Shown one piece after another: positions 8,638 to 30,437 of a DNA stretch of 46,707 bases. The stretch is from Chthoniobacter flavus (GTDB lineage: Bacteria > Verrucomicrobiota > Verrucomicrobiia > Chthoniobacterales > JACTMZ01). The number at the start of each line of letters is the position of its first letter. Position 1 is the stretch's first letter. The notes beneath the pieces were generated by a model that searched no databases, had not been told where the DNA came from, and saw only the letters and a list, made by a program, of their open reading frames with translations. The stretch is taken from assembly GCA_945871065.1 (NCBI GenBank), contig CAMBUL010000011.1:1-46707 (forward strand). The letters run 5' to 3'. Made by a program: the position numbers and the translations under genes.

Positions 8638-8639
8638 GC

Positions 8640-9146: not shown

Positions 9147-9161
9147 TCCCACCAAAGCCCG

Positions 9162-10427
9162 ATGAAGCCGACGCACAGAAAAATGGCCCTTCTTGCCTCA
9201 GCACCGGCACAGCGGCGTCGAAAGGGCAAATTGTGGCCGTTTGTCTTACTACCGCTTTTCTTGACGTTGGCTGGTTGCACCTTTCTCCCCAGCTCTGGTC
9301 CGTCGGGTTTCCGCATCAAGGCCGGGGCCAAGCAGACCAAGGGGCTGGCTTCTTACGAATGGCTGCAGGTCGACCAACCGACGGTCGAGCTGCTCCAGCA
9401 ATTCAGTCCGACACCATCGTATGTTTCCGCTGAGGGAGAGAAGAAGGTCCTCACGTCTCTCCCTCGAGGCATCGAAGCGCTCGGTCAGGGAAGCGCGCAA
9501 GCTATTCAACCCGGGGATATCGTTCATATTGCAATTTTCGAGAGCGGGGGCGGCCTCTTCACACCTTTAACGCCAGAGGGACAAAGTAGCGGAAGCCCGG
9601 TCACATCCCTTCCTGCCCAAAGGGTTGACCAACAGGGTGACATTACCGTGCCGTTCGCCGGACGGGTGCGTGCGCTTGGGCGTTTGCCTGGTGACCTAGA
9701 GTCTGAAATCACCGAAATGCTGAGCGGAAAGACGGTCGACCCCCAAGTCATCGTCACCGTCGCCAAGCGCGACGGAGGAGATCTCGTGAGCGTGGGGGGA
9801 GATGTTAAGTCTCCTACTCAAGTCCCGGTTAGCCTTGCCGGCACACGTCTAGTCGACGCGATTACCACAGCAGGCGGCAGCACGGCGCGTCCCCACCAAG
9901 CCATGGTTGTGGTAACGCGCAATGGGGTCACCCGCTCCGACTCTCTTCAAGAGATTTACAACGTGCAGGGGAAAAATATTCTTCTGCAACCTGGCGACAC
10001 GGTCCTGGTGAGTAACCGTTTACTCAGTTATCTCGTCTTTGGTGCTGGCGGGAAGATTGGTAATCAACCAATCGAAATTGAGGACTTGAGCTTGGCTCAA
10101 GCTATCGCAATCTCGGGAGGGCTTGATGACAACAGGGCGAATCCCTCCACAATATTCGTTTATCGGAAAGAATCACGACGTTTTCTCGAGGCAGCAGGCA
10201 AGACAAACCTCCCTCCCGGTGCTGCCCTGCCGGTCATATACCAACTTCAGCTTCAAGAACCGCAGGGCTTCTTCTTTGCAGACAATTTCATGATCCGCGA
10301 CAACGACATCCTTTATTACGGCGCGGCTGGCAGTGTGGGCGTTCTCAAGTTTATGAGTCTGCTCAATGCCTTTTTTGCCCCTGCCCGCTCGGGTTTGAGC
10401 GTGACCAGTCCTGCCGCAGGATTCTGA
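9162..10427 (+). CDS. Outer-membrane polysaccharide export lipoprotein (Wza/BexD/KpsD type)
   Basis: The 421-residue protein should form the outer-membrane channel for capsule export. A basic N-terminus and hydrophobic segment end in the lipobox LTLAGC (Cys39), followed by a polysaccharide-export domain (IQPGDIVHIAIFESGGGLFTP, QQGDITVPFAGRVRALGR, VDPQVIVTVAKRDGG) and SLBB-type repeats (SVGGDVKSPTQVPVS, LLQPGDTVLVSNR, AIAISGGL). A TTG at 9144 is in frame but lies inside the ops element, so the ATG at 9162 is preferred; the ATG at 9183 is also possible. It leads a compact operon with kpsM, kpsT and kpsE. No Shine-Dalgarno precedes it, which fits the ops element. Confidence 0.9.
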   Translation: MKPTHRKMALLASAPAQRRRKGKLWPFVLLPLFLTLAGCTFLPSSGPSGFRIKAGAKQTKGLASYEWLQVDQPTVELLQQFSPTPSYVSAEGEKKVLTSLPRGIEALGQGSAQAIQPGDIVHIAIFESGGGLFTPLTPEGQSSGSPVTSLPAQRVDQQGDITVPFAGRVRALGRLPGDLESEITEMLSGKTVDPQVIVTVAKRDGGDLVSVGGDVKSPTQVPVSLAGTRLVDAITTAGGSTARPHQAMVVVTRNGVTRSDSLQEIYNVQGKNILLQPGDTVLVSNRLLSYLVFGAGGKIGNQPIEIEDLSLAQAIAISGGLDDNRANPSTIFVYRKESRRFLEAAGKTNLPPGAALPVIYQLQLQEPQGFFFADNFMIRDNDILYYGAAGSVGVLKFMSLLNAFFAPARSGLSVTSPAAGF

Positions 10428-10444
10428 GACCCTCACGCTTCCCC

Positions 10445-11278
10445 ATGACCACCCGGCAAGCCCCCGCAGCCTTGCCGCCTGAGATCCCTGAACACTCGCT
10501 CCGCCATGCTTTGCGGGAGCAGGTCTCCGTGATCTGGGCTCTGATGATGCGCGAGGTCATGACTCGCTTCGGGCGCCACAAGCTTGGCTACCTATGGGTC
10601 TTTCTGGAGCCAACTATTCACATTGGAGTCTGGTTCGTTATACGTCTCGCCATCCGCGCAGGAGGTGGTGCGGCGGACATGTCTCCCTGGCTGTTCCTCG
10701 GCACCGGTGTTATGCCACTCATTACCTTCATGCAGATGAATAGCTATGTCGGGGGGGCGATTTCCGCCAATGGAGCCCTCCTTGCCTTTCCTCCCGTCAA
10801 GACACTCGACACCATTGCGGCGCGCTTTTTGTTGGAGTCGGGCACATTAATCGTGGTTGCGGTCGTGCTCTTTACTGGACTGGTGGCATTTGGAGTAGCG
10901 ACGTGGCCTGACAGTCTCGGAACTCTTGCCTTGGCTGGAGGCGGCATGGCATTGCTCGGATTAGGCTTCGGCATTTGCAAAGCCATTGCGACGGCCTTCT
11001 TCCCGGTTGCAGGCCAGCTCAATGTCATCGTCGTCAGAGTGCTTTATTTAACTAGCGGCATTTTCTTTGACCCGGAAAAACTACCTCCCGACATACAGTA
11101 CTGGCTCTCGTTCAACCCCTGCCTGCACGGCGTGCAATTATTCCGTCACGGCTATTCCAATCTCTATGTTACAAATCTGGCGGATCCGTGGTATCTGTTT
11201 TCGTGGGCTCTCGGACTCGTTGCGCTCGGACTTCTTCTGGAGCGCATCACGAGACACCGCATGAAAGACCTGCCATGA
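10445..11278 (+). CDS. kpsM: Capsule ABC exporter permease, KpsM family
   Basis: The 277-residue ABC-2-type permease is the membrane half of the exporter that moves the completed polysaccharide across the inner membrane. A cytoplasmic N-terminus with MMREVMTRFGRHKLGYLWVF (the usual motif before the first helix) leads into about six hydrophobic segments. LTSGIFFDPEKLPPDIQYWLSFNP near the end is typical of KpsM/Wzm proteins. It starts 17 bp after the export lipoprotein gene, and its stop overlaps the kpsT start (ATGA). Wzm of O-antigen export is the alternative name; the KpsE, KpsC and KpsS partners in this island favour KpsM. Confidence 0.93.
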   Translation: MTTRQAPAALPPEIPEHSLRHALREQVSVIWALMMREVMTRFGRHKLGYLWVFLEPTIHIGVWFVIRLAIRAGGGAADMSPWLFLGTGVMPLITFMQMNSYVGGAISANGALLAFPPVKTLDTIAARFLLESGTLIVVAVVLFTGLVAFGVATWPDSLGTLALAGGGMALLGLGFGICKAIATAFFPVAGQLNVIVVRVLYLTSGIFFDPEKLPPDIQYWLSFNPCLHGVQLFRHGYSNLYVTNLADPWYLFSWALGLVALGLLLERITRHRMKDLP

Positions 11279-11928
11279 TCCAACTCGAGCGAGTCACCAA
11301 AACTTACCGCATCGAGGGCGGGCTCAAACTTGTCCTTGATGACATTGATTTTGTCTTTCCCTCGGGGCTTAGCGTGGGTGTATTGGGAATGAACGGAGCC
11401 GGCAAGTCTACACTACTGCGTTTGCTGTCTGGAGCGGACCAGCCGACGTCCGGTCGTGTCCGCCGCAACCGTCGCATTTCATGGCCCGTGTCGCTCAGCG
11501 GTTTCAACGGTTCTTTGACCGGCGAAGAAAACGTGCGTTTTGTCAGTCGTCTCTACGGCGTCGACCACCGCGAGGTCATGCGCTATGTTGCCTCGTTTAC
11601 CGAATTAGGAGACGACCTCTACCAGCCCACGCGCACCTATTCAGCCGGCATGCGCGGGAGATTATCTTTTGCTTTGAGCCTGGCCTTGGACTTCGACACG
11701 TACATTGTCGATGAGGGCCATGCCACCGGAGATGCAAGGTTTGCCAAGCGCTTCAATCAGGAGTGGCGCCAGCGTCTGCAAAGGGCGAATATTATCATGG
11801 TTTCCCACCGAATCGGCACCATTTATGAACACTGTACCCACGCTGCCATACTCCATCAAGGCAAACTCAGCCCGCTGATGACTATCGATCAGGCGGCCCC
11901 GATCTACGAGTATCTCCTCGGCGTTTAA
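11275..11928 (+). CDS. kpsT: Capsule ABC exporter ATPase, KpsT family
   Basis: The 217-residue ATPase powers the KpsM permease. It has the Walker A loop GMNGAGKST (38-46), the signature-like YSAGMRGRLSFALSLAL and Walker B YIVDEGHATGD with the catalytic Glu, then the switch His in MVSHRIGTIYEHC. The short length, without a C-terminal carbohydrate-binding domain, is typical of KpsT rather than of Wzt, which carries an O-antigen-binding extension. The ATG at 11275 overlaps the kpsM stop, so the two are translationally coupled. One base separates its stop from kpsE. Confidence 0.95.
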   Translation: MIQLERVTKTYRIEGGLKLVLDDIDFVFPSGLSVGVLGMNGAGKSTLLRLLSGADQPTSGRVRRNRRISWPVSLSGFNGSLTGEENVRFVSRLYGVDHREVMRYVASFTELGDDLYQPTRTYSAGMRGRLSFALSLALDFDTYIVDEGHATGDARFAKRFNQEWRQRLQRANIIMVSHRIGTIYEHCTHAAILHQGKLSPLMTIDQAAPIYEYLLGV

Positions 11929-11929
11929 T

Positions 11930-13246
11930 ATGGACACCAATCCCTCATCTCCCGTCCCGTCGGAAGGCCCAAAGAAAGCCGGGACTCCGGACCTGCCAGC
12001 GGCTCGCGGTCCCCTGGATGGCCGTCGGCGCCGTGCAGCCGCCCAGTTAGCTTCTGCCCACCCGGCGCTGAAGGTCCGGGCGGAGGAGATCTTTCCCCCG
12101 ATAGCCGGCCTACCGCAGCGCCCCACCGCACCACGGCGCACGCGAAATTTACTTTTGTCGGCGGTTCTGTTCATGGCTCTGCCTGTTGTTCTTGCCGTGC
12201 TCTACTTCGGTTTTATGGCCAGCGATCAATACTACACCACAGCGGACTACGCGGTTCGCTTCTCCCAGGGTGCCGCGGCTGCTCCACACTCCGCAGGCGG
12301 CGGCGGCTTGGGTGGGATGCTGGCCGGAGGGGCAGCGGCCGCTATGTCAGACATGTTTATTCTGCGCGACTACATTCTCAGCCACCAGATCCTCGAAGAC
12401 CTCGAACCCGAGCTCGACATTCGAGCTATTTACTCCGATCCCAAAGCGGACCGCTTGGCACGACTGGACCCCGCGGTAAGCAAAGAGGACCTACTCGAAT
12501 ATTGGAGAGGCATGATTAGTGTCCGTTGCGATATAACCACAGGCATAAGCCACCTCGGGGTACGTGCCTTCACCGCAAAGGAAGCCAAGCAAGTTGCCGA
12601 CAGCGTACTCCGTCTGAGCGAAGCACTCGTAAACCGGTTGTCCGACCGGGCCCAAGATGACCGGCTTGAACTAGCACAGCGGGATGTGGACGAAGCATAT
12701 ATACGAGTAGCCGAGGCGCTTGATGGTCTTCGCATTTACCAAGAGCGGGCTGGTCAGGTTAGCCCCGAGGGATTTGTTCAGGCGCGCAGCGAACTCGAAG
12801 CGGGCATCGAGCAGGAAGTTTCACGATACGAGGCCCAGATCGAGAGACTTCGGCGCGACCTGCCAGACGATGCGCCGGGTATTAGGCAACTCCGTCAGCG
12901 CCTCGAGATTGCCCGCAGCCAACTCGGCGCAGAACGTCAACGTTCCACCTCTTCCCCGTCAAATGAGGGGGCTTCGGCGTCGGAAATTTTTACCGAATTC
13001 TCCAAGCTCAAGCTCGAGAGCGAGTTTTCCGCCAAGGCTTACGACTCAGCCTTGGCTTCGCTGGAACAGGCGCGCCTCGAGGCGGCTAAGCAGGACAGGT
13101 ATCTTGAGGCCTTTGTGCGCCCTCAATTGCCGGATGCTCCCGAATACCCACGCCGCGCATTCAATATCGCGCTCGTCGCCGTCGGTTCCTTTCTTGTCTG
13201 GTCAATCGGCGGCCTCATGGTCGCTGCAGTGCGCGAACACCTTTAA
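11930..13246 (+). CDS. kpsE: Capsule export inner-membrane protein, KpsE/BexC family (PCP-3)
   Basis: The 438-residue protein should link the inner-membrane ABC exporter to the outer-membrane channel. A proline/alanine-rich cytoplasmic tail of about 70 residues precedes one transmembrane helix (about 73-95). A large periplasmic part follows, with coiled-coil helices (about 235-400), and a second helix close to the C-terminus (ALVAVGSFLVWSIGGLMVAAV). The motif PxxPxxPRR before the last helix appears as PQLPDAPEYPRRAFN. A Gly/Ala-rich loop (AGGGGLGGMLAGGAAAA) follows the first helix. It is somewhat longer than E. coli KpsE (about 380) because of the N-terminal tail. The first 13 codons read SSPVPSEGPKK-like low complexity. 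Confidence 0.9.
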   Translation: MDTNPSSPVPSEGPKKAGTPDLPAARGPLDGRRRRAAAQLASAHPALKVRAEEIFPPIAGLPQRPTAPRRTRNLLLSAVLFMALPVVLAVLYFGFMASDQYYTTADYAVRFSQGAAAAPHSAGGGGLGGMLAGGAAAAMSDMFILRDYILSHQILEDLEPELDIRAIYSDPKADRLARLDPAVSKEDLLEYWRGMISVRCDITTGISHLGVRAFTAKEAKQVADSVLRLSEALVNRLSDRAQDDRLELAQRDVDEAYIRVAEALDGLRIYQERAGQVSPEGFVQARSELEAGIEQEVSRYEAQIERLRRDLPDDAPGIRQLRQRLEIARSQLGAERQRSTSSPSNEGASASEIFTEFSKLKLESEFSAKAYDSALASLEQARLEAAKQDRYLEAFVRPQLPDAPEYPRRAFNIALVAVGSFLVWSIGGLMVAAVREHL

Positions 13247-13298
13247 GGCGATTCAATCCCCGTTTGCCACGGCATCCGGCAAAACCGTGAACTGCTCC

Positions 13299-15803
13299 AT
13301 GATTGCATCCTATCTGGCGCCACTTTTGCTGGCCCGGGGCCCAACGACCGCGAGGGGACGTCTGCGGAAGTGGTGGCTACTTTGCGCTTCATTAATTGTC
13401 CGCCGGTCCGGACTTTTCGACCGCGATTATTATGAGCAGCAAAACCATGACGTTGCTGAAAGCGGAATGGATCCTTTGTGGCACTATCTGGCCTATGGTG
13501 ACCGCGAAGGGCGCCAACCTATGCCTTGGTTTGATCCTGAGCACTATCGGCGTTCGCTGCCCGCGCCGATTTCCCACCAATACAACAGTCTTCTGCACTA
13601 CTTGTTCATCGGGCGATTCCTCCAACCCGAGGTCAGTCCGAATTTCGACACCCGGCACTTCTACCAGAATCATCGTGATGTCCGGCTCAAACGGAAGGAG
13701 TCATTACTTTGGTTTCGCCAACTGGGTAACGCTGCCGCATCTCACTACTCTCCTTTCGCCTTGGCCGCAGGAACTCACTTACCAGAGGCACCATCGCGCG
13801 AAGATTGGACCAGATTGCCCGCCATGCAAGGAGCCGCACCATTAGTCGACATCATTGTTCCCGTCTTCCGGGGCCGCGCCGAGACTTTGCGCTGCCTGTA
13901 TTGTGTCCTTAGCTCCAAACAACAAACTCCTTTCCGGCTGATCGTGGTCAATGACAGCAGCCCCGACAAAGAACTAGCCGCTGAACTAAGCCGATTGGCT
14001 GAGCGAGGTCTATTCGATCTGGTGGAACACGCAGACAACAAAGGTTTTGTCTTTTCTGTTAATCAAGCTCTTTTGCTCCACCCCGATCGAGACGTTATCT
14101 TGCTCAACGCAGACACCGAACCGCACAATGACTGGCTCGACCGCCTGCGAGCGACCGCCTACCGGCATCCGCGGGTTGCCACGGTGACGCCTCTTTCGAA
14201 CAATGCGACAATCGCCAGCTATCCGCGTTTTGACCGCGACAATCCCGGGCCGCTTGAATTGGACCCAAAAGAATTTGACCGGTTGGCGGCGGAGACCAAC
14301 CGCGGAATATGTGTCCAGGCACCGACCGGTGTGGGCTTCTGTCTTTACATCCGCCGCCTCGCTCTTCGGGAAGTCGGTCCGCTTGATGAAGCAAGCTTCG
14401 GGAAAGGATACGGAGAGGAAAACGACTTTTGCCGGCGGGCGGTCAAATTAGGGTGGGAAAACCGGATCACCGCGGACGTTTACATCTGGCATTGGGGCGC
14501 TCGTTCGTTTTTGGGTGAGAAAAACAAGCATGTTTCCCGCGCTATGCAAGTCATGGAGCAGCGGCACCCTGGCTATCGGCGGTTGGTCGAGGAGTTCGTG
14601 TCGGCCGACGGGCTGGCACCGCATCGCGCCGGACTCGATCGAGCCCGCCTGTTGCGCCGCCGATCTTCTGCGGAGAACGTTCTCTTCGTGACTCACACCA
14701 GAGGGGGCGGAGCGGCTAGACACGTGGAGTCGGAGATGCGGCACCTGAGTAACCGGGGAGTTGGCAGCTTCTTACTGCAGCCGGAAAAAGAAAGATTCGG
14801 ACGCCTCGGCGCCCCCGGGCTGCCGCGGCTTCCCAACCTTCCGCCTGTGGATCTTACTTCTGCCGAACAGCTCGAAGACTTGCTTGGCTGGCTGGGCATC
14901 AGCGAGGTTCAGATACATCAACTGGTCGACTTCCCGCGGGCCATCACGGGTGGCGACCGCGGCGCGGCACGGACGATCGCGGGCGCGGCACGTCGTCGCG
15001 GGATTCCGTTCGACTTTTATGTTCACGACTATCAACACATTTGCCCCCGCATCAATCTTGTCGGGCCAAGTTCAGTTTACTGCGGAGAGCCGGACGAGCA
15101 CACTTGCCGGCGCTGCCTCAAAATCCGGGTCCGCGGTATAGAAAATCCGAACATAGCTGATATTCATGCATGGAGGGTGCGTCAGGCTTCTCTACTAGAG
15201 GGAGCACGGCGGGTCATCGTCCCCGACCAAGATGTCATGGATCGTCTCTCCTATTACTATCCACATGCCCATTACTTAGTCCGACCGCACGAAGACCCGG
15301 CCATATTCCCTCCGTCTTCTGCATCACGCTCCGGCCGCCGCGGCCCGGTGCGGATCGTTGTTCCGGGCGCCATAAGCACGGTCAAGGGCTACGACATCGT
15401 CTTAGCTGCTGCCCGCGCAGCGAAGAGGGCACGGCTGCCCCTTGAGCTTATCGTCATGGGTTACACGCGTCGGGACAAAGAACTAGCAAGCGTTGGAGTG
15501 AAAATTACCGGACGATATTGGGACGAGAACGCGGGCGACACACTACGGGAGATTGACGCGGATATGGCTTGGGTCCCTTCGGTCTGGCCTGAGACTTATT
15601 GCTACGCCTTGTCGATCCCGCTCAAGGCAGGCCTTCCCGTTGCCGCGTTCGACCTCGGGGCACAGGCGTCCCGGTTGCGTCGTCACGGCGGGGATCATTT
15701 GCTCCTTTCCATGGAGTTTGCCCGTAAACCCCAAGAACTAATCGCGGTCCTCCACCAGTTCGCTAGCGCCCGGCGAAGACCCTGCCAGAAACTAGCCGCT
15801 TAA
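13299..15803 (+). CDS. Multidomain glycosyltransferase: FDxxYY repeats, GT2 and GT4
   Basis: The 834-residue protein has three parts. Residues 30-140 carry three imperfect repeats of the type LFDRDYYEQQNHDVA...DPLWHYLAYGDREGR, often seen at the front of capsule glycosyltransferases. Residues about 181-420 form a GT-A/GT2 domain (VDIIVPVFRGRAETLRC, VVNDSSPD, LLNADTEPHNDW, GYGEENDFCRRA). Residues about 459-820 form a GT-B/GT4 domain (NVLFVTHTRGGGAARHVES; PSVWPETYCYALSIPLKAGLPV). It should add at least two sugars, or one sugar with one modified activity. The ATG at 13299 is chosen; a GTG at 13287 is also in frame, and the earlier open frame overlaps kpsE and is not coding. It is the last gene before a 546-bp gap. 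Confidence 0.85.
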   Translation: MIASYLAPLLLARGPTTARGRLRKWWLLCASLIVRRSGLFDRDYYEQQNHDVAESGMDPLWHYLAYGDREGRQPMPWFDPEHYRRSLPAPISHQYNSLLHYLFIGRFLQPEVSPNFDTRHFYQNHRDVRLKRKESLLWFRQLGNAAASHYSPFALAAGTHLPEAPSREDWTRLPAMQGAAPLVDIIVPVFRGRAETLRCLYCVLSSKQQTPFRLIVVNDSSPDKELAAELSRLAERGLFDLVEHADNKGFVFSVNQALLLHPDRDVILLNADTEPHNDWLDRLRATAYRHPRVATVTPLSNNATIASYPRFDRDNPGPLELDPKEFDRLAAETNRGICVQAPTGVGFCLYIRRLALREVGPLDEASFGKGYGEENDFCRRAVKLGWENRITADVYIWHWGARSFLGEKNKHVSRAMQVMEQRHPGYRRLVEEFVSADGLAPHRAGLDRARLLRRRSSAENVLFVTHTRGGGAARHVESEMRHLSNRGVGSFLLQPEKERFGRLGAPGLPRLPNLPPVDLTSAEQLEDLLGWLGISEVQIHQLVDFPRAITGGDRGAARTIAGAARRRGIPFDFYVHDYQHICPRINLVGPSSVYCGEPDEHTCRRCLKIRVRGIENPNIADIHAWRVRQASLLEGARRVIVPDQDVMDRLSYYYPHAHYLVRPHEDPAIFPPSSASRSGRRGPVRIVVPGAISTVKGYDIVLAAARAAKRARLPLELIVMGYTRRDKELASVGVKITGRYWDENAGDTLREIDADMAWVPSVWPETYCYALSIPLKAGLPVAAFDLGAQASRLRRHGGDHLLLSMEFARKPQELIAVLHQFASARRRPCQKLAA

Positions 15804-16349: not shown

Positions 16350-19300
16350 ATGAAAAAGTTGCTCGGCAGAATCCAGCGAACAATTGCTTCTCCCCCGACC
16401 ACCTTGGGCAGAGCGGAAACTGTTTTTAGTGTGGTCTGGCGTGCCGATCGTCCGGGGTTGGAGGCAGTTCTTGGGCAACACTCCGAGGAAGCCGCATCGG
16501 AGCTCATCCCGCAGCTGGTAATCAATGGCACATCGCTCCCACCATCTCGCCGACAGCGCAGGCCGGATGACGGCCGCCTGATTTTGGTTTGGGAAGAACT
16601 TCCCACCATGGCACGCGAACAGGAAAAAATCCTCTTCTCCTTCGCTTCCAAAATTGTCAAACCAGCTTCGGCCCGAGTGGGCGCCCCGCGCCCTGGCGAT
16701 GCGGCGATGGAGCCGGTTGCGGGACACTTCGAGGGCTTCGATCACGCAGGCAATATTTGCGGCTGGCTCGACCGTTCAACACGGCATCCCGGAGAGTTTT
16801 CCGTCGTTTGCGGCGATGAGCGATTGCCAGTGCATCCTGAAATCCAACGCCAAGATTTGGCGGAGGCGGGTTTCCCTTCAGGGCGCGGTTTCATTGTGGA
16901 ATTCCGCGAAATCTTACCGCTATTGGGTCCGTTTTTTTCCGGGCGCGCCCTGAGGATCGAAGGAATCTCTGGCGCGCTTGTCAGTCAGCCCCTTTACTGG
17001 CCGGTCCTTCAGCCCGCACGCCGCAATGAGATACTTTGGAACTGGCTCGCGAGATTCTTTGCTCTGAGCTTGGAAAGCAGCACCTTCGATCTGGAGGCCC
17101 TGGAGCTTTTCGACGCAGAGTTTTCCAAGCTTGAACAGGAAGGTCTTGCAGGGCTGCAAGATGAGACGGGAGCCATGCGTTGCGTGCAACTCATGCAGGA
17201 CTTGTGTGGCCAGCAAGTCGGCGGGCAGGCGGACTTCCGGTCCAACCTTGCCAAACTCTGTCAACTCAGCTCGCGATTGGCCCGGTCACACCCCTTGTGG
17301 AAAAACGCGGTGGCGGGCTTTCAAGCGGCCATGATTGCCGAAGATTTCCTCGACACCGTGCGAAGCGTCTGGAAGCAGCAAGCGCTGCTGGAGGCCGAGG
17401 ACGAAAAACCCGTCGCACCGCCCGCCCCCCTCGAAGCGTTATTTCTCGCCCCGGTGCTCCACGCCGGTCGCCTGCACTTTCTTCCTTGGGAAGGCTGGGT
17501 GCGTAATAATTTGCTCAGAACTATTGAACTGGCCACCAATCTCCCGGCCGAGAGAAACGGAAACGAAGATTTGGCCGCCAAACTCTCGGCGGTCGAAGCT
17601 GTTGTCTCTCTTCTTTACAGGGACGAGGAAATTATAGGCGGATTGCAGCGCTTGCGGCGTCAACTCGGGGTTTACAGTGGCCAACCCTCGGCACATGCCC
17701 GCCGCGAGGTCGTCGCCCTCATGAAACAGCGCAAATTTCTGCAAGCTCTCTCCATTGAGAGCCGCATTCCGAGCGAGGAGTCGGTTTCCGGTGCAGTCAA
17801 CGCCTTTGCATCGCAACTTGGTGCGGCGCGCGAACTCGGGCAGACCTTGCCAACTGCGGTCATCCGCGCCTGGAAGGATCGCCTCGGCTCCGGCGTGGAA
17901 CAGGCGGTGACGAACCCCGTATTTCTCGCGGCACTGCACGGTTACCTTGAATTTGCGGGCCAAGTTCTGATGAATCCGGCCACAACGGCAGGGCAACCAA
18001 TCGGCCAAGCGCAGCAGACGCGCCTCGATATCATCGGATCCATCAAGGAGTTACTCTCGTTGGAACCGATCCGCCCTTTAGCCCGCGGGTCGAAAGCCGC
18101 AGGCGAACCGCTCAATATCCTGCTCGTTGGTTCGCGGGACCTGCCTCAAGTCCATCTCTACCGACAAGAACAAAAAGTGGCGGCTTTGCGTAACCTCTCC
18201 ACCCGCACAAGGCCGATAAACGTCGAGCGGGCCGATACTTGGGAAAAGATCAACGATCCCAAGCTGACCCGTTGTTTGGTCGGATCCGACATTCTCGTGG
18301 TCTGTCGGCTGCCGGCAACTCTTTCCGTTTTGCGACTCATCCACGCCGCTCGCCGGGCCGGCGTGCGGGTGATTTACGAAGTCGATGATCTGATTTTCGA
18401 CCACGAAAATTTCCCACCCGCCTACGAGACTTATTCTGGAAGTGTCACCCGGCGAGAGCATCGGCAACTTGCGGAGGACACTCCACTGTGGCTCGAGGCC
18501 ATGCGTTTGGCGGATGAGATCATTGTTTCGACCGCCACGCTAGCCGAACGCGTACGAGTTCTCTTAGGCGACAACCAGCCCGTGCATATCGAACCAAATT
18601 GCCAGCCGGGTCCACTTCGCAGCCGGGGAAGAGTTTCCCGCTATTTGTCGCACCCAACCATCCGCAGGTGGCGGGCCACCGAGCGCATGCGTCTCGTCTA
18701 CGGAACAGGCACCAAAGCGCACAAACAAATCATAAACCAATGGATCCTGCCGGTGCTAGAGGATTTGCTTGAGCGGTATCCTCAGTTAGACATCACCTTG
18801 GTTGGACGACTCAAAGCCATTCCCCACGGCCTTGCCAACCACCCGCGTGTCCAGATCGTTCCCTTCATTGGCTACGACGCATATCTCGACATTCTTTCCT
18901 CCGCAGACCTTACTCTCGCCGCCATCGAGGAGGGTGTGGCCTCGGATGCGAAGAGCGGGCTCAAATGGATGGAAGCCGCCTTTCTCGGCGTTCCGTCGGT
19001 CGTTAGCCCTTCCGCCACTTACCGCGAGTTGCTGGAGGACGGATCGGATGTTCTTTTCGCCGAAACCAAGGAACAGTGGGAAGAACAACTGGGGCGATTG
19101 ATCAGCGACCCGGATCTCCGCACGCGAATTGCCGAGAGGGCACTCCGCAAGGCAACCGCCTCATTTTCCCCAACAACCGCTGAAAATGTGTGGTCCAAGA
19201 TCATCAGGCAAGAAGCGACAAACCCGCAGGAGGCTTGGCCCGCCGGACGCCCGCTGCGACTGCTCTTGGTTAATCTTTATTTCCAACCACAGTCGCAGGG

Positions 19301-22816: not shown

Positions 22817-22840
22817 AATGGACTTGTTCAGCGAAGCAAG

Positions 22841-22849: not shown

Positions 22850-22940
22850 ATAACAACAAACGGATTAACAAGTCTCCTCTAGTGATGGTAAAAATCCGCC
22901 GCTATTTAAACTTTGGCGTCAACAAACAAAGCGTCCGGAA

Positions 22941-23798
22941 ATGATCGACAAGCTCTTCCTGTCTGTTGGTGCAATGAAGTCGGGGACCACTTGGCTTTAC
23001 GATAAAGTACGCCATCATCCAGGCATTCATTTCTCCCCACAAAAAGAGGTGCATTTTTTCGCCTTTCATTATGGGCACAGCAACGCCTTAGCCGGCAAAA
23101 AGCGCGACAGGCGGGCCAAGCAGGCCATGCGTCTCGCGCGTGGCGAAAAAGCGGCAACGAAGACCCTCCAAAGGCTACGTCGGTGGCGAGCGAGCTACCT
23201 CAGCGATCCCGTCGACTTCAACTGGTTTGAGACCATTATGGATGCGCCCCAAGCCAATGGGCGCTTTCTAGCCGACTTCTCGAACCTGAACTGCTTTCTG
23301 ACTCCGGACAACTGGCGTGACCTGAGAGACAAGCATGCGCGGGAAATCCGTGTGATTTATATTCTCCGCGATCCGCTCCCACGAATTTGGTCGCACTTCA
23401 AATACCATCTTCAGTTTAGCAAACATCCCGCGGCTCGGGAACCCGAGAAAGACTTTGATCTCTTTCGAACAGTTTTAGCCAAGGGCTGGTTTTGGCGAAA
23501 CGCTTGCTACTCCACAACGGTCCAATCATTGCGGGCCGGCTTAGGCACCGGCAATTTTGGCCTTTTTTACTTTGAGGACATGATAGCGAGCCCGGACCAG
23601 TTTCTCGCGGAACTCTTCCGCTTCCTTGAAATAGAACCCGTGGTCTATCATGGCGACCTGCACGGTCGAAAAAATATAAGCACGCCTGCTTCCATCCCGC
23701 CAGACTGGGCCGACTACACGCGTGCCAGACTCCACGAAGAAATGTTGTCGATGCGAGCGGCCGGAATTTGGCATGAGAAGTGGTCCTCGCTCGCTTAG
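22941..23798 (+). CDS. PAPS-dependent sulfotransferase, heparan-sulfate-transferase-like
   Basis: The 285-residue protein has VGAMKSGTTWLYDKV, the canonical 5'-phosphosulfate loop with Lys-Ser-Gly-Thr-Thr, and IYILRDPLPRIWSHFKYHL, the 3'-phosphate-binding motif. The stretch FSPQKEVHFFAFHYG after the loop matches the family of heparan-sulfate-like sulfotransferases, where a Glu/His near this point aids catalysis. It should sulfate the capsule chain. It sits between the two MDGIxTxAND paralogues, with only 11 bp to the second, so these three are probably one functional block. The start ATG at 22941 is preceded by CGTCCGGAA, a weak ribosome-binding site. Confidence 0.9.
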   Translation: MIDKLFLSVGAMKSGTTWLYDKVRHHPGIHFSPQKEVHFFAFHYGHSNALAGKKRDRRAKQAMRLARGEKAATKTLQRLRRWRASYLSDPVDFNWFETIMDAPQANGRFLADFSNLNCFLTPDNWRDLRDKHAREIRVIYILRDPLPRIWSHFKYHLQFSKHPAAREPEKDFDLFRTVLAKGWFWRNACYSTTVQSLRAGLGTGNFGLFYFEDMIASPDQFLAELFRFLEIEPVVYHGDLHGRKNISTPASIPPDWADYTRARLHEEMLSMRAAGIWHEKWSSLA

Positions 23799-23809
23799 CA
23801 CCCTGACTA

Positions 23810-24637
23810 ATGGATGGCATCTACACAATGGCCAACGACAGAATGGCTTCATTTTTGGAGTCCTTCCTGCGGAGCCTAAGACGTGTTATGCCATCCGTGC
23901 CGATCGGGGTTATTCCGTTCGACGATTCCGTGCAGAAAACAGAGCAATTGGCAGCCACTTACGGGGCATCACTGGTCCCACCGGATCTAACTTGGGACCT
24001 CATCGGCAAGAATATCTACGGCGACGAAGACTACCGTCCTGGCGTGCCGGCCTACCGGTATTACAGAAAATTCAATGCATTCACGGGTCCGTTCCAGACG
24101 TTTTGTTTCATGGATGTTAACACGCTTGTTCTCAGCCCCCTCAACGAGCTGGGAAAGAGATTAGACCAAAACCATGATATATTGTTTCTGATGCGTTCGT
24201 CCCCAAAGCGTTCAATCCGACGCGATGTCGCGCGGTGCACCATGCAAATTCTCTCCCCCGGTATACTTAGTGGCTACAACGCCGGTTTCTTTCTGAGCCG
24301 TCGGAATACCGTCGACCCCTTGCACGCGGCGACACTCGGCCGGAATAAAAATCTGCGCCGCATTTTCGGCATGGCCCCCGAACAGGCATTCTTTGCTTGG
24401 TATGCTACGATTTGCGGTCTCCGTCACGGCCTCATTGGGGAGTTGGATCCGAGTCTCCAAAACGTATCTTCGGGTAAAAAGTTCCTTGTCGAAAAAAGCG
24501 GCGACGGGCGCTTTTATTTTCTGGAGGGTCCGTCGCAGGGGCGGCAGGCTTATTTCCTTAAATGGACAGGGCAAGACGCAGCAGAGATGAAGGGTGGCAA
24601 GAATGCAAACCTGTTGGATCTCTGCTTTTCCCCTTAA
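23810..24637 (+). CDS. GT-A-like capsule protein, paralogue 2 (MDGIxTxAND family)
   Basis: The 275-residue protein matches 21977-22816 along its whole length: MDGIYTMANDRM, VIPFDDSVQKT, GDEDYRPGVPAYRYYRKFNAF, FCFMDVNTLVLSPL, GRNKNLRRIFGMAPEQAFFAWY and YFLKWTGQDAAEMKGGKNANL. The putative metal site again reads Asp-Val-Asn (102-104). FNAGFF-like sequence (YNAGFFLSRRN) corresponds to the acceptor-side segment of GT8-like enzymes. Tandem duplication around the sulfotransferase gene is the simplest origin. Its stop overlaps the next start by one base (TAATG). It is probably a sugar transferase acting on the same chain at a different position; this is inference. Confidence 0.65.
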   Translation: MDGIYTMANDRMASFLESFLRSLRRVMPSVPIGVIPFDDSVQKTEQLAATYGASLVPPDLTWDLIGKNIYGDEDYRPGVPAYRYYRKFNAFTGPFQTFCFMDVNTLVLSPLNELGKRLDQNHDILFLMRSSPKRSIRRDVARCTMQILSPGILSGYNAGFFLSRRNTVDPLHAATLGRNKNLRRIFGMAPEQAFFAWYATICGLRHGLIGELDPSLQNVSSGKKFLVEKSGDGRFYFLEGPSQGRQAYFLKWTGQDAAEMKGGKNANLLDLCFSP

Positions 24638-26088
24638 TGCTAATGGACAAAACCACAATTCAAACAACCACGGTTAATCCTCGCCACATTGGTGAACAAC
24701 AATTTTCCGAATTTCTCCGCCTTACTGCTTTTCCTACCCTCTTGGAGGAACTTAAAGGACAGGCGCTTGAAACCATTGGTTTTTTGACCAAACATGCGAC
24801 GCGTGCTATCGAATATCCTTGGGCCGCCCACCAACTCGAATCGCGCGGAGTGCGCACGGCGGTTGATGTGGGTGCTGGAGTCTCGCCGCTACCTTTGCGT
24901 TTGGCCAGTCGGGGAATCAAAGTCACAACCGTTGACTATAGCCGTAATGTGCGATCCTTGAAAGATCGTGAAAAGTGGACCGAGTGGGGATTCTTGGATT
25001 ACTCCCTCCTTGATCCTTCGATAAGCTCCTATAATAAGCCTCTTTCTAAAGTGGACCTCGAGGCCGGTTCTCTGGATGCATTTTACTGCATTAGCGTGAT
25101 TGAGCACACTCCACGGTCGCTACGCATCGAAATGCTCGAAACGGCGGCACAGCTTGTCAGGGCAGGAGGCTGGGGAGTGGTCACCTTGGACCTCGTTCCC
25201 CGCACCCGGCGGCTCCGCAATCGTGATCGAGGTCGCAAAGTCGAGGACGACAAAATTCATGGCACGGTTGACGATTTTGTCGATGAAGCGGCGATGGCAG
25301 GCTGGAAGCTAGAAACCACCGAAATCGCAAAGCAGATTCCTGGTGCCGTGACGGATGTGGCGATGCTTGTATTTCACAGGACCGCAGACCCCGCCCCAAC
25401 TGCGGAGGCACGCCGCCACGTTGTTGCGAACGGCGACTCGGCAAGTCTGCAAGAACGGTTCTCCAAAATCTATCGGCGCGGAGGCTGGTCCGGTGGCAAA
25501 GCGGGTTCCGCTTCGGGAGCGGGTTCCAGTTTGGAATACACGAAAAACCTCCGGCAGAATCTTGGGGCACTGCTCGAAGAACTCCGGGTCTTCACTTTTC
25601 TTGACGCTCCGTGCGGTGACTTTGCCTGGTTCAAAGAGGTTGAGGTCCCAGAAGGGATGGTTTACTTAGGCATGGATGTGGTGCGTGACCTGATCCGTGC
25701 CAATCAGTCAAAATTCGCCTCCCGCCACCGCGTTTTCTTTGCCGGCGACATCACAGCCGACCCCCTCCCGAGTGCCGACCTCATGATGTGCCGCGATTGT
25801 TTATTTCATCTTTCGGACGACGATTGTTTTGCGTTTCTCCAAAACTTTATTGCCAGCGACATTGACGCCCTTTTGCTCACTTGTCACCGAAACACGGCGA
25901 ACAACGACCTCCCCCCGGGGAAGGGATTCCGACAAATAAACTTCCGCTTGCCTCCCTTCTCCTTTCCGGAACCGCAAAAAGCTATCGAGGACTACGTCCA
26001 AGGTTTCCCCGCTCGCGACGTCTGTTTATGGCAGGCGGAGGAGCTCCGAGCTGCACTAGCCTCGCGAAAAAGTGGGGCCGCAACGTGA
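24637..26088 (+). CDS. Tandem SAM-dependent methyltransferase (two domains)
   Basis: The 483-residue protein contains two class I methyltransferase folds. The first has its SAM motif at about 70-95 (VDVGAGVSPLPLRLASRGIK) with VTTVDYS as the acidic strand and FYCISVIEHTP as a catalytic-region strand. The second has FLDAPCGDFAWFKEVEVPEG at about 318, YLGMDVVRDLI for the acidic strand and LMMCRDCLFHLSDDD. A Ser/Gly-rich linker (GGWSGGKAGSASGAGSS) joins them. It should methylate the polysaccharide or its terminus. Each half resembles stand-alone methyltransferases of other gene clusters, so this is a fusion. The ATG at 24637 overlaps the preceding stop; an ATG at 24643 is the alternative. Confidence 0.85.
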   Translation: MLMDKTTIQTTTVNPRHIGEQQFSEFLRLTAFPTLLEELKGQALETIGFLTKHATRAIEYPWAAHQLESRGVRTAVDVGAGVSPLPLRLASRGIKVTTVDYSRNVRSLKDREKWTEWGFLDYSLLDPSISSYNKPLSKVDLEAGSLDAFYCISVIEHTPRSLRIEMLETAAQLVRAGGWGVVTLDLVPRTRRLRNRDRGRKVEDDKIHGTVDDFVDEAAMAGWKLETTEIAKQIPGAVTDVAMLVFHRTADPAPTAEARRHVVANGDSASLQERFSKIYRRGGWSGGKAGSASGAGSSLEYTKNLRQNLGALLEELRVFTFLDAPCGDFAWFKEVEVPEGMVYLGMDVVRDLIRANQSKFASRHRVFFAGDITADPLPSADLMMCRDCLFHLSDDDCFAFLQNFIASDIDALLLTCHRNTANNDLPPGKGFRQINFRLPPFSFPEPQKAIEDYVQGFPARDVCLWQAEELRAALASRKSGAAT

Positions 26089-26459
26089 AGGACCTCTTTT
26101 TTACGGGAAAGCCCGGCACTCACTGCAGTCCAAACGAGGCGGTTTACTCTTTCTTGCATGCGACTCTGGTTTGTTTCCGGTTCTTCTCGAATGAACTGTG
26201 CCTGACTCAAGCGCCCAGTGCTTACGTCGGCACCTTTAGTCACTGTGGTTTTCGCGCCTTGTGAGGGCAGTTATGGTAATTAACGCGGTACGTATCTCGA
26301 AATTTGACCGACGCGAAGCGCAATTGCCTATACTTGTTCCAAAAATAGTGGGTACCGAGTTAAACCGGGACGACCAGCATTGATGCTGAGGCTAGGAAAT
26401 CCTTTAGTCACCCTTTTCTACCCCTATCCCTGCAGCACACTCCAGGAGGGGAAACTCCG
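26089..26459. other. Noncoding gap inside the capsule island
   Basis: The 371 bp hold no convincing gene. The right half looks regulatory: a promoter candidate at 26304-26334 and a strong Shine-Dalgarno (CAGGAGGGG, 26442-26450) before the ATG at 26460. Confidence 0.5.
26304..26334 (+). promoter_or_regulatory. Promoter candidate for the third capsule operon
   Basis: TTGACC (26304-26309) and TATACT (26329-26334) are good -35 and -10 matches but with a 19-bp spacer, longer than usual. They would start a transcript about 120 nt before the Stf0-like gene. Confidence 0.4.
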
Positions 26460-27311
26460 ATGCCCAGTTGTCGTCAGTTTATCGCCATAACGCCCCGCTG
26501 CGGGAGCACATGGTGGTGCGATCTGCTTGCTCACGCGGGCTTAGGTCGCCCGGCGGAATTTCTCAACGGTGATGGCCTGTGGTGCAAATCACGTCCCCCC
26601 AATACTCCACTTATCTCCTGGGCTGAACTGCACCAAGGCATGGCATGTTCGTCCGGCACGGAGCAATACGACCTCAAAGCAAGCTGGTTCCAATTCATGC
26701 CATTGCTCGACCCGCCGCTGGAGACAACTCTGGCAACGGAGGGTTTTCCAACCACCATATGGAGTTACCTGACGCGTCGTGACCTGCCGGCCCAGGCTCT
26801 CTCACTGTACCTTATGCGGAGAGTTGGCTCGGCTCACTCGCGCAAGGGCCAGGCCAAGCCCGTGTTTGATGCAACTTGGTTTCATCCCTCTCCGGCAAAT
26901 CATGAGGCACTGATGTGCTGGTTGCTGCACATCGTCCAGCAGGAGTATGGTTGGGAAGCTTTTTTCCTGCGTCACAGCATCAAGCCTTGGCGCTACATTT
27001 ATGAAGATATCGCACAGCACCCGATCCTCAGTCTTCGCCGGTATTTACGACATGCCGATCTCCGGGGAGTCCGGAGGGCGGAGCTCACATTAAGCCCCGC
27101 GGTCTGCGCTCGTCGTGCCACGAGATGCTCGAGGTTTGTCAAACGAGATTACCCCACAACCGCTTCGGGGGACTTGCTGGCGAGCTTCAAACATAGGTTT
27201 GCCCGACAGCTTTCGACTATCGACGAGCTGCGCGGGAAAGAGGCGGCTGCCTCACTCATGAAAATCTGCGCGATGAGCCGGTTAGACCGCAGTGAGATGA
27301 AAGGGCTTTAA
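26460..27311 (+). CDS. Stf0-like sulfotransferase
   Basis: The 283-residue protein begins with IAITPRCGSTWWCDLLAHAGLGRPAEFLN, the PAPS loop and following segment of the Stf0 family (the trehalose-2-sulfotransferase of mycobacteria is the model). SYLTRRDLPAQALSLYLMRR matches the Stf0 3'-phosphate region, and EAFFLRHSIKPWRYIYEDI matches its WxxYF...I.P..YE segment. Stf0 enzymes sulfate sugars. It starts with the best ribosome-binding site of the island (AGGAGGGG, about 9 nt before the ATG). It is the first gene of the block that leads into kpsC. It belongs to a different sulfotransferase subfamily from those at 20657 and 22941. Confidence 0.88.
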   Translation: MPSCRQFIAITPRCGSTWWCDLLAHAGLGRPAEFLNGDGLWCKSRPPNTPLISWAELHQGMACSSGTEQYDLKASWFQFMPLLDPPLETTLATEGFPTTIWSYLTRRDLPAQALSLYLMRRVGSAHSRKGQAKPVFDATWFHPSPANHEALMCWLLHIVQQEYGWEAFFLRHSIKPWRYIYEDIAQHPILSLRRYLRHADLRGVRRAELTLSPAVCARRATRCSRFVKRDYPTTASGDLLASFKHRFARQLSTIDELRGKEAAASLMKICAMSRLDRSEMKGL

Positions 27312-27384
27312 GCACAGTCACCTTTTGCTCGCGTCCCTGACATGCGGAACAGCCGCCTCCAAATAAGTCCCTCACCTACTGCCC

Positions 27385-28383
27385 GTGACTCAAACTCCGC
27401 ACAATTCGGCCCTAGTTCCGCCCGGGCACTCCCGCGCTGGCTACAACCATGCTTTTGTCCTTGCACCATCGCCATCTCCGACGCTCGAGTATTATTTTTC
27501 GCATGTCGCAGACAAAGTGCCGTCTGGAAACATCGAAACTTGCTACGCATCCCGACCCTGCGTGAAACGTCCGAAACTCCAACCCGGAACCTGGGTCGTA
27601 ATATTCAGGCATGCGCACCCGTCGTGGCTCCGCTTCATTCTTTCCCGAAGAGAGGAGCTATCACGCGTTACCTGGTTCCTCGATGATGACATTCCTGCAA
27701 TGCTTTGGCAGAGATCTTTGCCTACTGTGTACGTTTGGAAATCGTATGTGCGATACCTGCACGTTAAGGTCCTTCTGGCAGGAAGGGGAACGGACTATGC
27801 TTTCTCGACAGAGGAACTGGCTTCGCGCTTTCCCAATATCCCTCGCGAGGTATGGCCGCCTCGGAGGGTGGACCCGCCTGCGCGGGAGCTTCCATTGCTC
27901 TATTTTTACCATGCAACCTCGTCGCACCATGCCGAACTGGCGTGGCTTGCCCCAATAGTGGGAGAGGTCCAGCGCCGTGTTCCCGAAGCATGGTTTGAAC
28001 TGTTTGCGGACCGCACGGGAAGGGAAATTTTCCGTTCGGTTCCGCGGACCCGTTGCATTCACCCCATGGTCTGGGCGGACTTTTTGCGCTACACATCGAC
28101 TTTCAAGGCGGACGTGGGGCTTGCGCCACTCCTCGATACGGCTTTGAACCGGGCCCGCGCGCCTGTCAAGTTTTTCGATATCGCCCGCACCGGAGCTGCA
28201 GGCATCTTTTCCGAAAGCCAAACTTTTAAAGGCACCGTGCGGGATGGTGTCAACGGGCTCCTGCTGCCCAACGAGCCTGAGCGCTGGGTTGAGGCAATTA
28301 TTCGTTTGCTGCAATCCCCCGCAGAACGACTCAGCCTTGCCACCCAAGCAAGCCGTGATTGCGGGACAGCTTCTGCAAAATGA
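27385..28383 (+). CDS. GT-B family glycosyltransferase
   Basis: The 332-residue protein has a GT-B look: an N-terminal half ending in VTWFLDDDIPAML and a C-terminal half with LPLLYFYHATSSHHAELAWL, RCIHPMVWADFLRYTSTFKADVGLAPLLDTALNRARAPVKFFDIARTG and VRDGVNGLLLPNEPERWVEAI, which correspond to the donor-binding region of GT1/GT4 enzymes. It is probably a capsule sugar transferase acting near the Kdo-linker, given that its stop overlaps the kpsC start (ATGA). It starts with GTG at 27385; no ATG precedes the conserved part. The sugar is unknown. Confidence 0.75.
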   Translation: MTQTPHNSALVPPGHSRAGYNHAFVLAPSPSPTLEYYFSHVADKVPSGNIETCYASRPCVKRPKLQPGTWVVIFRHAHPSWLRFILSRREELSRVTWFLDDDIPAMLWQRSLPTVYVWKSYVRYLHVKVLLAGRGTDYAFSTEELASRFPNIPREVWPPRRVDPPARELPLLYFYHATSSHHAELAWLAPIVGEVQRRVPEAWFELFADRTGREIFRSVPRTRCIHPMVWADFLRYTSTFKADVGLAPLLDTALNRARAPVKFFDIARTGAAGIFSESQTFKGTVRDGVNGLLLPNEPERWVEAIIRLLQSPAERLSLATQASRDCGTASAK

Positions 28384-30437
28384 ACCGCTGGACCGACGTC
28401 TTGCCGGAGCGCTTCTTTCTCGGCTCACCGGGTGCGGTTCGTCAGCGCGGACATGCCCGACGCTTGGGGGAACTATTAGCGCCGTCCCGCATTACGGCCG
28501 ACCCAACAAAGGCACAAGCCGTCATCGCTTGGGGTCTCAAACCGAGTTCCGAGAAGGCGGCCGAAGCGGCAGCCCGACACGGGCTGCCGCTCTGGCGGGC
28601 AGAGGACGCCTTCCTCCGCTCCGTTTGCCCGCGGCAGTCAGACCCTGCGCTTGGTATGGTTTTTGACGACCTCGGCATCTACTATGACGCTGACCATGAA
28701 TCGCGGCTGGAGCGGCTGATTTTCCAAACTTCGGGCTCGGCGGCCAATGAGGAACGGGCCGCCAATCTGGTCCGTCTGTGGCGGAAGCACCGGGTTTCCA
28801 AATACAACCACGCGCGGGAGTTTTCTGGCCAACTCCCAGAAAACTACGTTCTGGTCGTCGATCAGACACTGGGAGATCTCTCCATTCGTCACGGCCGTGG
28901 GGACCCGTCTGTTTTCCACCGCATGCTCGAAGCTGCGCTTAAGGAGAATCCGGACGACCACATTGTGCTCAAAGTCCACCCTTTGGCGGCCAAAGGGACT
29001 AAGCCGGGACACTTCAACCTAGGAATGGTCGGCCGGGAACGGCGTATATACCTCATCTCAGAGGATACTCATTTGGTGCGCTGTATCGAGCAGGCCAAAA
29101 AAGTTTACACTGTCACTTCGCAAGCGGGCTTCGAGGCTCTTCTATGGGGCAAAGCTGTTCGCACCTTCGGCATGCCTTTCTACGCAGGTTGGGGATTGAC
29201 CGAGGACGCGATTGCTGCCCCCAGCCGGAGACGGCGTTGCCCCCTTGGACGATTGGTGCAAGCAGCTCTGGTCGATTATGCGCGCTATGTGAACCCCGAA
29301 ACCGGCCAGCAGTGCGAGCCGGAAGAAATCATCGAGTACCTCGGCGTTCAGCGGGAGATTATGGAGCGATACCCGGCGTATCTGGCTGCGCCCAGCTTGT
29401 CTCTCGCCAAGCGTGCCGCCGTAAGACGCTTTTTTCCTTGCAGCCAGGTCAACTTCAAAAAAAGCGCACTCCATGCAAAAAATACCGAAGCGGTCTTGGT
29501 TTGGGGGAGATCGCGCTCGCCCCACCATAGCTGCGGTAAACCCGTCATCCGACTGGAAGACGGCTTTATTCGCTCCGCGGGCTTAGGGTCCGCTTTCACA
29601 CCCGCTGCATCGTGGGTAGCGGATAGAACGGGAATCTACTTTGATGCTTCTCGGCCTTCCGACCTCGAGAGCATCCTCCAGACGGCAGTTTTCACCCCGG
29701 AGTTGCGGTCCAGGGCCAGGTCTTTAACCGAAGCGATAATCAGCGCTAGATTGACCAAATATAATGTCGGCTCGGACGGCTGGACTATACCGGACGGCGT
29801 CGGACGACTCATCCTTGTGCCCGGCCAAGTGGAGGATGATGCCTCGGTGGTTTGGGGATCTCCCCAGATCAGAACGAACATTGCGCTGCTCCGAGCCGTA
29901 CGCGAGCGGAACCCGGATGCCTACCTGCTCTACAAGCCTCACCCGGATGTCATCGCTGGCTCACGCTACGGAGGGGATGGTGCCTGGCTAGACTGGGCCG
30001 ACAGCATAGCTGACCGTTGGGTGTCATTAGATTCTTTGTTTCCGATGGTGCACGAGGTTCACACCATGACATCCCTCGCTGGGTTTGAAGCATTGTTGCG
30101 GGGCAAGTCCGTTACCGTCCACGGCATGCCTTTTTATGCTGGATGGGGGCTGACAAACGATATACTTGGGTCGCCTGGAAGGCGGGACCGGCTCTTGGAC
30201 CTTGAGGAGTTGGTTGCCGGTGCTCTCATCCTTTATCCGCTTTATCTCAGCGCAGTGACAGCACGCCCGACGACGCCTGAACGGGTCGTGCAGGAAATAG
30301 CGGAAGGACTTCGTCTCGGAGCCGCGGGCATATTAGAAACCCTGCTCGCACAATTCAAAAAAACCACCACTCGTTGGTCTGCTCCCTCTGAGAAGACAGG
30401 AGTGGGATCACTGCCTGCGAGGAACTTGCTGAGCTGA
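28380..30437 (+). CDS. kpsC: Dual-domain capsule Kdo transferase KpsC
   Basis: The 685-residue protein has the two-module architecture of KpsC (E. coli about 675), which builds the poly-Kdo linker on lyso-phosphatidylglycerol with two transferase activities of families GT99 and GT107. Both modules show the paired motifs: AEDAFLRSV and LEDGFIRSAGLGS; DLGIYYDA and RTGIYFDA; TSQAGFEALLWGKAV and TSLAGFEALLRGKSV; each followed by GMPFYAGWGLT. The ATG at 28380 overlaps the upstream glycosyltransferase stop. The C-terminus overlaps the 3' end of kpsS on the opposite strand by 30 bp. It is the best evidence that the product is a lipid-anchored, group 2-type polysaccharide. Confidence 0.96.
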   Translation: MNRWTDVLPERFFLGSPGAVRQRGHARRLGELLAPSRITADPTKAQAVIAWGLKPSSEKAAEAAARHGLPLWRAEDAFLRSVCPRQSDPALGMVFDDLGIYYDADHESRLERLIFQTSGSAANEERAANLVRLWRKHRVSKYNHAREFSGQLPENYVLVVDQTLGDLSIRHGRGDPSVFHRMLEAALKENPDDHIVLKVHPLAAKGTKPGHFNLGMVGRERRIYLISEDTHLVRCIEQAKKVYTVTSQAGFEALLWGKAVRTFGMPFYAGWGLTEDAIAAPSRRRRCPLGRLVQAALVDYARYVNPETGQQCEPEEIIEYLGVQREIMERYPAYLAAPSLSLAKRAAVRRFFPCSQVNFKKSALHAKNTEAVLVWGRSRSPHHSCGKPVIRLEDGFIRSAGLGSAFTPAASWVADRTGIYFDASRPSDLESILQTAVFTPELRSRARSLTEAIISARLTKYNVGSDGWTIPDGVGRLILVPGQVEDDASVVWGSPQIRTNIALLRAVRERNPDAYLLYKPHPDVIAGSRYGGDGAWLDWADSIADRWVSLDSLFPMVHEVHTMTSLAGFEALLRGKSVTVHGMPFYAGWGLTNDILGSPGRRDRLLDLEELVAGALILYPLYLSAVTARPTTPERVVQEIAEGLRLGAAGILETLLAQFKKTTTRWSAPSEKTGVGSLPARNLLS

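Follow-up and report, generated by a model that had tools for sequence, protein, structure and literature searches.

Contig CAMBUL010000011.1 of Chthoniobacter flavus (Verrucomicrobiota; assembly GCA_945871065.1), a stretch of 46,707 nucleotides that was analysed at its full length and is referred to here as the window, carries an island of genes that probably directs the synthesis of a Kps-type capsular polysaccharide, which would be sulfated in the cytoplasm before export. The window is one whole contig (C11) of a draft genome (G000; 2.53 Mb in 120 contigs, 95% complete), and the island extends from a conserved leader at about 8900 to 33196, past kpsS and a gene for a GacH-like protein. A sequence-only reading had recognised the island at 9162-30437, and while the island is real, its end lies at 33196 and not at 30437. 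The three sulfotransferase open reading frames that this reading had proposed are found at the expected positions, each above the curated Pfam cut-off:

20657-21550, plus strand: sulfotransferase ST1 (PF13469, 1e-11; motifs GSQRAGST and KELHYF)
22941-23798, plus strand: sulfotransferase ST2, with an NDST/3-OST-like predicted fold (PF13469, 2e-11; PF00685, 2e-10)
26460-27311, plus strand: sulfotransferase ST3, Stf0-like (PF09037, 4.6e-9; motifs TPRCGSTW and RPAEF)

ST1 and ST2 of the window retain intact core motifs (GxxKxGTT or GSQRAGST, KE.H[FY]F and RDP..R..S), and seven aligned positions (K35, E36, H38, R143, P145, R148 and S151 in ST2 numbering) are invariant in nine sequences from seven genomes. 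The family E-values rule out chance matches, as does the retention of ST1 (57% identity) and ST2 (54%) in a syntenic island of a sister species from the same genus (G004). No further PF13469 match was found in the G000 genome, hence its PF13469 enzymes, ST1 and ST2, are confined to the island. No membrane segments are predicted in ST1, ST2 or ST3, which fits a cytosolic reaction with 3'-phosphoadenosine 5'-phosphosulfate (PAPS) ahead of export. The assignment of the three proteins to distinct subfamilies is fair at the subfamily level, although ST1 and ST2, at about 19% identity, share one Pfam family.

The similarity of ST2 to heparan sulfate sulfotransferases, noted from the sequence, is borne out at the level of the fold. 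A profile built from the nine-sequence alignment ranks 3-O-sulfotransferases (3-OST-3, 2e-19) and NDST (1.5e-11) before any SULT; the PAPS-binding and KE.HFF motifs of ST2 lie at residues 10 and 35, and E36 of the latter aligns with the glutamate of 3-OST-3 in the profile alignment. A structure model of ST2 (predicted local distance difference test, pLDDT, 84) gave Z scores (VIA) of 19.2 to NDST1 and 18.5 to 3-OST-3, with the listed NDST and 3-OST chains at 16.9-19.2 and the bacterial structure 3rnl in the 17-19 range, versus at most 13.0 for TPST and SULT. By its predicted fold, ST2 is thus supported as a carbohydrate sulfotransferase of the NDST/3-OST type. An ST1-only profile of two rows matched no solved structure. 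ST3 passes the Stf0 family cut-off (PF09037, 36.6 bits against 22), and fails that of the trehalose 2-sulfotransferase equivalog (NF047724, 21.7 bits against 400), so that its designation as Stf0-like holds for the family and not for the substrate. Trehalose 2-sulfotransferase is itself a member of the Stf0 family, and PF13469 covers many unrelated substrates.

The claim that the island holds a complete Kps-type export system has been confirmed, as KpsD, KpsM, KpsT, KpsE, KpsC and KpsS are all encoded. By this exporter set, together with KpsC and KpsS, the locus is assigned from its sequence to the ABC-transporter-dependent (Kps, group 2/3) capsule type. Reading from 9162, the plus strand carries in order kpsD, kpsM, kpsT, kpsE, GT_A, GT_B, ST1, NpA, ST2 and NpB, then a two-part methyltransferase gene, ST3, GT_C and kpsC, followed on the minus strand by kpsS and the GacH-like gene. 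In addition to the sulfotransferases, the island thus comprises the following genes (Kdo, 3-deoxy-D-manno-oct-2-ulosonic acid):

9162-10427, plus strand: kpsD-like outer-membrane polysaccharide export protein (PF02563, 1.6e-13; SLBB; VexA/KpsD-type NCBIfam matches)
10445-11278, plus strand: kpsM, ABC-2 permease (PF01061; multiple hydrophobic segments)
11275-11928, plus strand: kpsT, ABC ATPase (PF00005, 2e-15; start inferred; ATGA overlap with kpsM)
11930-13246, plus strand: kpsE-like inner-membrane export protein (TIGR01010, BexC/CtrB/KpsE, 5.5e-77, under the curated cut-off)
13299-15803, plus strand: GT_A, glycosyltransferase of GT2 plus GT4 type (PF00535; 85% identity to the G004 copy)
16350-20660, plus strand: GT_B, giant glycosyltransferase of 1436 residues (PF13524, PF13439/PF00534)
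21977-22816, plus strand: NpA, possible GT-A/GT8-like glycosyltransferase (NF045582, 2e-17, under the cut-off)
23810-24637, plus strand: NpB, a paralog of NpA with 48% identity (weak NF045582 match)
24637-26088, plus strand: two-region methyltransferase protein (PF08241 at about residues 101-205; start uncertain)
27385-28383, plus strand: GT_C, glycosyltransferase of GT1 type (PF13692, weak)
28380-30437, plus strand: kpsC, beta-Kdo transferase of the capsule linker (PF05159, 3e-75, two halves)
30408-31685, minus strand: kpsS, beta-Kdo transferase (PF05159, 5e-64)
31670-33196, minus strand: GacH-like membrane phosphoglycerol (or similar) transferase (PF00884; overlaps kpsS)

KpsC shows full-length similarity to proteobacterial KpsC, at about 39-44% identity. 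ATGA overlaps join kpsM to kpsT and GT_B to ST1, the latter at 20657-20660; the coupling of ST1 to the giant glycosyltransferase that had been read from the window therefore stands, and G004 shows the GT_B/ST1 overlap too.

The distribution of the island was followed in a genus sample of 11 members and a class sample of 384 genomes. Within the genus, PF05159 is found in G000 and G004 only (two of the 11 members), and a scan of named genomes returned the sister Chthoniobacterales metagenome-assembled genome as its only match. The island is present at the same site in one congener (G004) and absent from it in four: G008 has MT2, pgi, a gene for a small lipoprotein-like protein and a rhodanese gene together without the island, and the lipoprotein-like and rhodanese genes also adjoin in G010, G002 and G005. 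Since the flanking genes stand together without it, the island is, on this comparison of sequences, accessory and inserted. Congeners without the island are also without kps genes, and the GC content at third codon positions within the island (0.57-0.69) is below that of most flanking genes. Between G000 and G004, identity is 81-90% for the exporter, KpsC and GT_A, 73% for GT_B and for the GacH-like protein, and 54-60% for ST1, ST2 and GT_C; ST1 and ST2 keep their order, and synonymous divergence is saturated for both, hence no ratio of nonsynonymous to synonymous divergence is given. In place of NpA, NpB, the methyltransferase and ST3, G004 has an unassigned protein, two FkbM methyltransferases and a third sulfotransferase-like protein, which sits at the position of ST3, has the motif HIGMNKAGSTS and lacks a Pfam match. 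In the class sample PF05159 was found at the strict limit in 13 of the 384 genomes, and clear PF13469 genes beside it in G000 and G004 only, with a sub-threshold match 5 kb away in G353; as contigs are short in several of the class genomes, absence there is weak evidence.

For sulfation, the host would need PAPS, on whose synthesis genes the sequence-only reading had made its claim depend, and the genome encodes CysC, CysN, CysD and a PAPS-type CysH. CysC lies on contig C31 (apsK, 1.3e-58) and CysN on C14 (TIGR02034, 6e-167), while CysD is split across the ends of C31 and C14 (fragment NF003587, 2e-71). Because the overlapping protein ends of CysD lie at the contig ends and CysN is next on C14, cysC, cysD and cysN form one run. 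CysH scores over the TIGR02057 cut-off for the PAPS type. A Met3-type ATP sulfurylase was searched for in the genome and is absent; by its gene content the genome uses CysDN for the ATP sulfurylase step. The by-product 3'-phosphoadenosine 5'-phosphate (PAP) would have to be removed, for which an earlier suggestion was a SuhB-like gene outside the island:

2689-3444, plus strand: SuhB-like phosphatase (the only PF00459, IMPase-family, gene found in the genome)

The SuhB-like protein scores 140 bits as an inositol phosphatase versus 85 bits as CysQ, and inositol/histidinol phosphatase is the better-scoring family. It remains a candidate despite these scores, and is joined by an NrnA-like gene (bifunctional PAP phosphatase family, under the cut-off); both are possible PAP phosphatases.

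From these genes we infer a pathway in which KpsC and KpsS would build the Kdo linker on a lipid, and the chain would be extended by GT_A, GT_B and GT_C, probably with NpA and NpB. CysDN and CysC would provide PAPS, from which ST1, ST2 and ST3 would move sulfate to hydroxyl or amino groups, either on the chain itself or on the units from which it is built; the methyltransferase would add methyl groups. KpsM/T/E/D would export the chain, and the GacH-like enzyme, whose active site is expected in the periplasm, would probably add a group of the glycerol-phosphate type. PAP from the sulfotransferases and from CysH would be removed by the SuhB-like phosphatase, the NrnA-like one, or both.

Several observations weigh against a sulfated capsule. 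The PAPS genes are permissive and not specific, since with a PAPS-type CysH they are used in ordinary sulfate assimilation as well. The island itself contains no cys genes, cysC, cysD and cysN being on C31 and C14 and not on C11, and PAPS genes inside the locus are presented as a hallmark of sulfated capsule loci (PMC11641403). Their presence within a capsule locus is, however, not required biochemically. The match of ST3 to Stf0 is weak and its sequence matched no solved structure; in G004, ST1 has GSQRAAST in place of GSQRAGST as its 5'-PAPS motif; and the substrate of a sulfotransferase is not readable from its fold.

The last point leaves room for sulfotransferases that act on a glycolipid, a small molecule or a protein and only hitch-hike in the island, as family membership alone, in Stf0 as in PF13469, gives no substrate. 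This is unlikely given that ST1 begins within the stop codon of GT_B in each of the two species, that all three sulfotransferase genes stand between glycosyltransferase genes and kpsC, and that ST1 and ST2 are conserved together with an exporter which the island-less congeners lack. Among plasmids, the best-matching relative of ST2, at 32% identity, is encoded on pW43A (L076) of Parasedimentitalea marina, likewise in a polysaccharide-export region, where it is one of two annotated sulfotransferases; at the limits applied, the plasmid collection contained no relative of NpB, ST1 or ST3. The weakness of ST3 and the altered motif in G004 could also be taken to mean that the capsule carries methyl and glycerol-phosphate groups and little or no sulfate, at least one of the sulfotransferase-like proteins being inactive or using another donor, and Vibrio sp. 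KMM 8419 indeed has three sulfotransferase genes and one sulfate per repeat (PMC11641403). We regard this as improbable in view of the intact core motifs of ST1 and ST2 and the seven invariant positions. A true glycosaminoglycan with a hexosamine-uronate backbone, sulfated as heparan is, would suit the resemblance of ST2 to NDST and 3-OST and the N-sulfated, glycosaminoglycan-like exopolymer reported for the Verrucomicrobiota genus Pontiella (PMC7356697), yet it is very improbable: no uronic-acid, amino-sugar or other sugar-nucleotide gene is among the Pfam and NCBIfam matches of the island, no island glycosyltransferase matched a known glycosaminoglycan synthase, and the glycosyltransferases are of GT2, GT4 and GT1 types, the GT2 plus GT4 and multi-GT-B enzymes pointing to another heteropolymer. 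For the same reasons, and as the fold gives no substrate, the description of the product as glycosaminoglycan-like is not supported.

A sulfated Kps-type capsule, as favoured here, is not without precedent, since sulfated Kps capsules (Cobetia, Vibrio) and sulfated Verrucomicrobiota exopolymers (Pontiella) are already known. The locus of Vibrio sp. KMM 8419 resembles the island in combining three sulfotransferase genes and an ABC transporter in one capsule locus, so that several sulfotransferases per capsule are less uncommon than had been assumed, but it differs in being a 95-kb mixed locus for capsule and O-antigen with a second cysNDC set (PMC11641403). In Cobetia marina KMM 1449 an ABC-type Kps exporter (kpsETMD), kpsSC and sulfotransferase genes are likewise combined, while that cluster, from a different phylum, has cysNDC/cysQ and sugar-nucleotide genes inside and a wcb lipid operon; in its capsule repeat, rhamnose is sulfated and mannose bears glycerol phosphate (PMC11766843). 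Pontiella (Kiritimatiellae) belongs to the same phylum as the host of the island and has PF13469-type sulfotransferases next to numerous glycosyltransferases, whereas its product is an N-sulfated stationary-phase exopolymer, and kps is absent from the text of the paper (PMC7356697). The synechan xss cluster of Synechocystis also has sulfotransferases (xssA and xssE) within a polysaccharide cluster, but makes an exopolysaccharide and has separate polymerisation genes and two sulfotransferases (PMC13125312). From these precedents the island differs in having no PAPS or sugar-nucleotide genes inside, an Stf0-type enzyme among its three sulfotransferases, and a GacH-like enzyme coupled to kpsS. 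In the accessible portions of the literature searched, no sulfated capsule was found for Chthoniobacterales, and the papers that mention Chthoniobacter and sulfotransferases are apparently not on synthesis. If the proposal is correct, sulfated Kps-type capsules extend to Chthoniobacterales, and the island offers a set of sulfotransferases to test as carbohydrate modifiers, two of which fall near NDST and 3-OST in sequence and, for the model tested, in fold. The sister islands, with constant (ST1, ST2) and exchanged decoration genes, would then serve as a natural experiment on the contribution of each enzyme.

The GacH-like protein has GacH of Streptococcus pyogenes (5u9z, 5wcx) as its nearest solved structure (4e-11), followed by LtaS-type enzymes and relatives. 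It has five N-terminal hydrophobic segments, and shares with GacH the catalytic domain and the position of the threonine. As a member of the sulfatase Pfam family, its gene is easily misannotated as a sulfatase; a role as formylglycine sulfatase or desulfating enzyme was rejected, as C/S-x-P-x-R is absent, GGAYTMRTEF stands at the catalytic position, and both the threonine nucleophile and the similarity to GacH speak against it. By sequence, addition of glycerol phosphate or something similar is a likelier role for the protein than removal of sulfate. GacH places glycerol phosphate on a polysaccharide of the Gram-positive cell wall, whereas here the gene adjoins and overlaps kpsS; the Cobetia repeat, with both sulfate and glycerol phosphate, makes the same combination credible here.

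Expression of the island may be governed from its leader:

8900-9161, plus strand: capsule operon leader, about 80% conserved in G004, holding an ops/JUMPstart-like element

The ops/JUMPstart-like element GGCGGTAGCTTG lies at 9135-9146 on the plus strand, 16 nt ahead of the kpsD ATG. It agrees at 11 of 12 positions with the E. coli ops sequence, and is the sole match in the window at one mismatch or fewer. At least one such match occurs somewhere in 27% of shuffled windows, so that its position is the notable part; G004 has the element at the corresponding place (L008:12185), though the whole leader is conserved there. In addition to NusG, the genome encodes a paralog (L066:1363-2031) that best matches RfaH (solved RfaH, 1.5e-14). 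Its best NCBIfam match is likewise the RfaH model TIGR01955, which it hits at 94.0 bits, short of the 144.5-bit cut-off, and it is hence called RfaH-like only. All members of the genus that were searched have the paralog, whether they carry the island or not, and it is therefore not island-specific. RfaH is reported to be about 95% proteobacterial and to occur in 23 of 117 phyla (PMC7593976). A fuller scheme, in which the capsule carries sulfate and glycerol phosphate, ST3 is swapped between the sister species like a serotype cassette, and the long operon of the inserted island is under the control of ops and the RfaH-like NusG paralog, is put forward tentatively.

Among the remaining genes of the island, GT_B has at least two regions of GT-B type and an N-terminal part without assignment, and homologs of GT_C adjoin KpsS/KpsC in other Chthoniobacterales (phmmer, 1e-69 in G133 and 3e-68 in G203). 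ST2 is flanked by NpA and NpB, paralogs of an uncharacterised family that are both absent from the G004 island. A joint NpA/NpB profile gave a weak match to LgtC (E 0.03), and the two are possibly unrecognised GT8-like glycosyltransferases; a fold predicted from the two sequences was discarded (mean pLDDT 40). The C-terminal half of the methyltransferase protein has weak matches to PF00891 (about residues 384-429 of the open reading frame) and TIGR02021.

The decoration cassette of G004 includes a 377-residue protein (L009:6555-7688) without a Pfam match above the cut-off. The third sulfotransferase-like protein of G004 is related (6e-71) to a 1541-residue protein of G157 with a PF17784 sulfotransferase match, which is encoded at L035:1176-5801, about 10 kb from KpsC, and is followed by proteins with CDP-glycerol transferase and GDPD domains; the G157 locus may possibly encode another sulfated or glycerol-phosphate capsule. 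Beside the island, the rhodanese gene (7162-8655, minus strand) has internal repeats, and it shows a partial match or an in-frame stop in the congeners G003, G004, G005 and G010.

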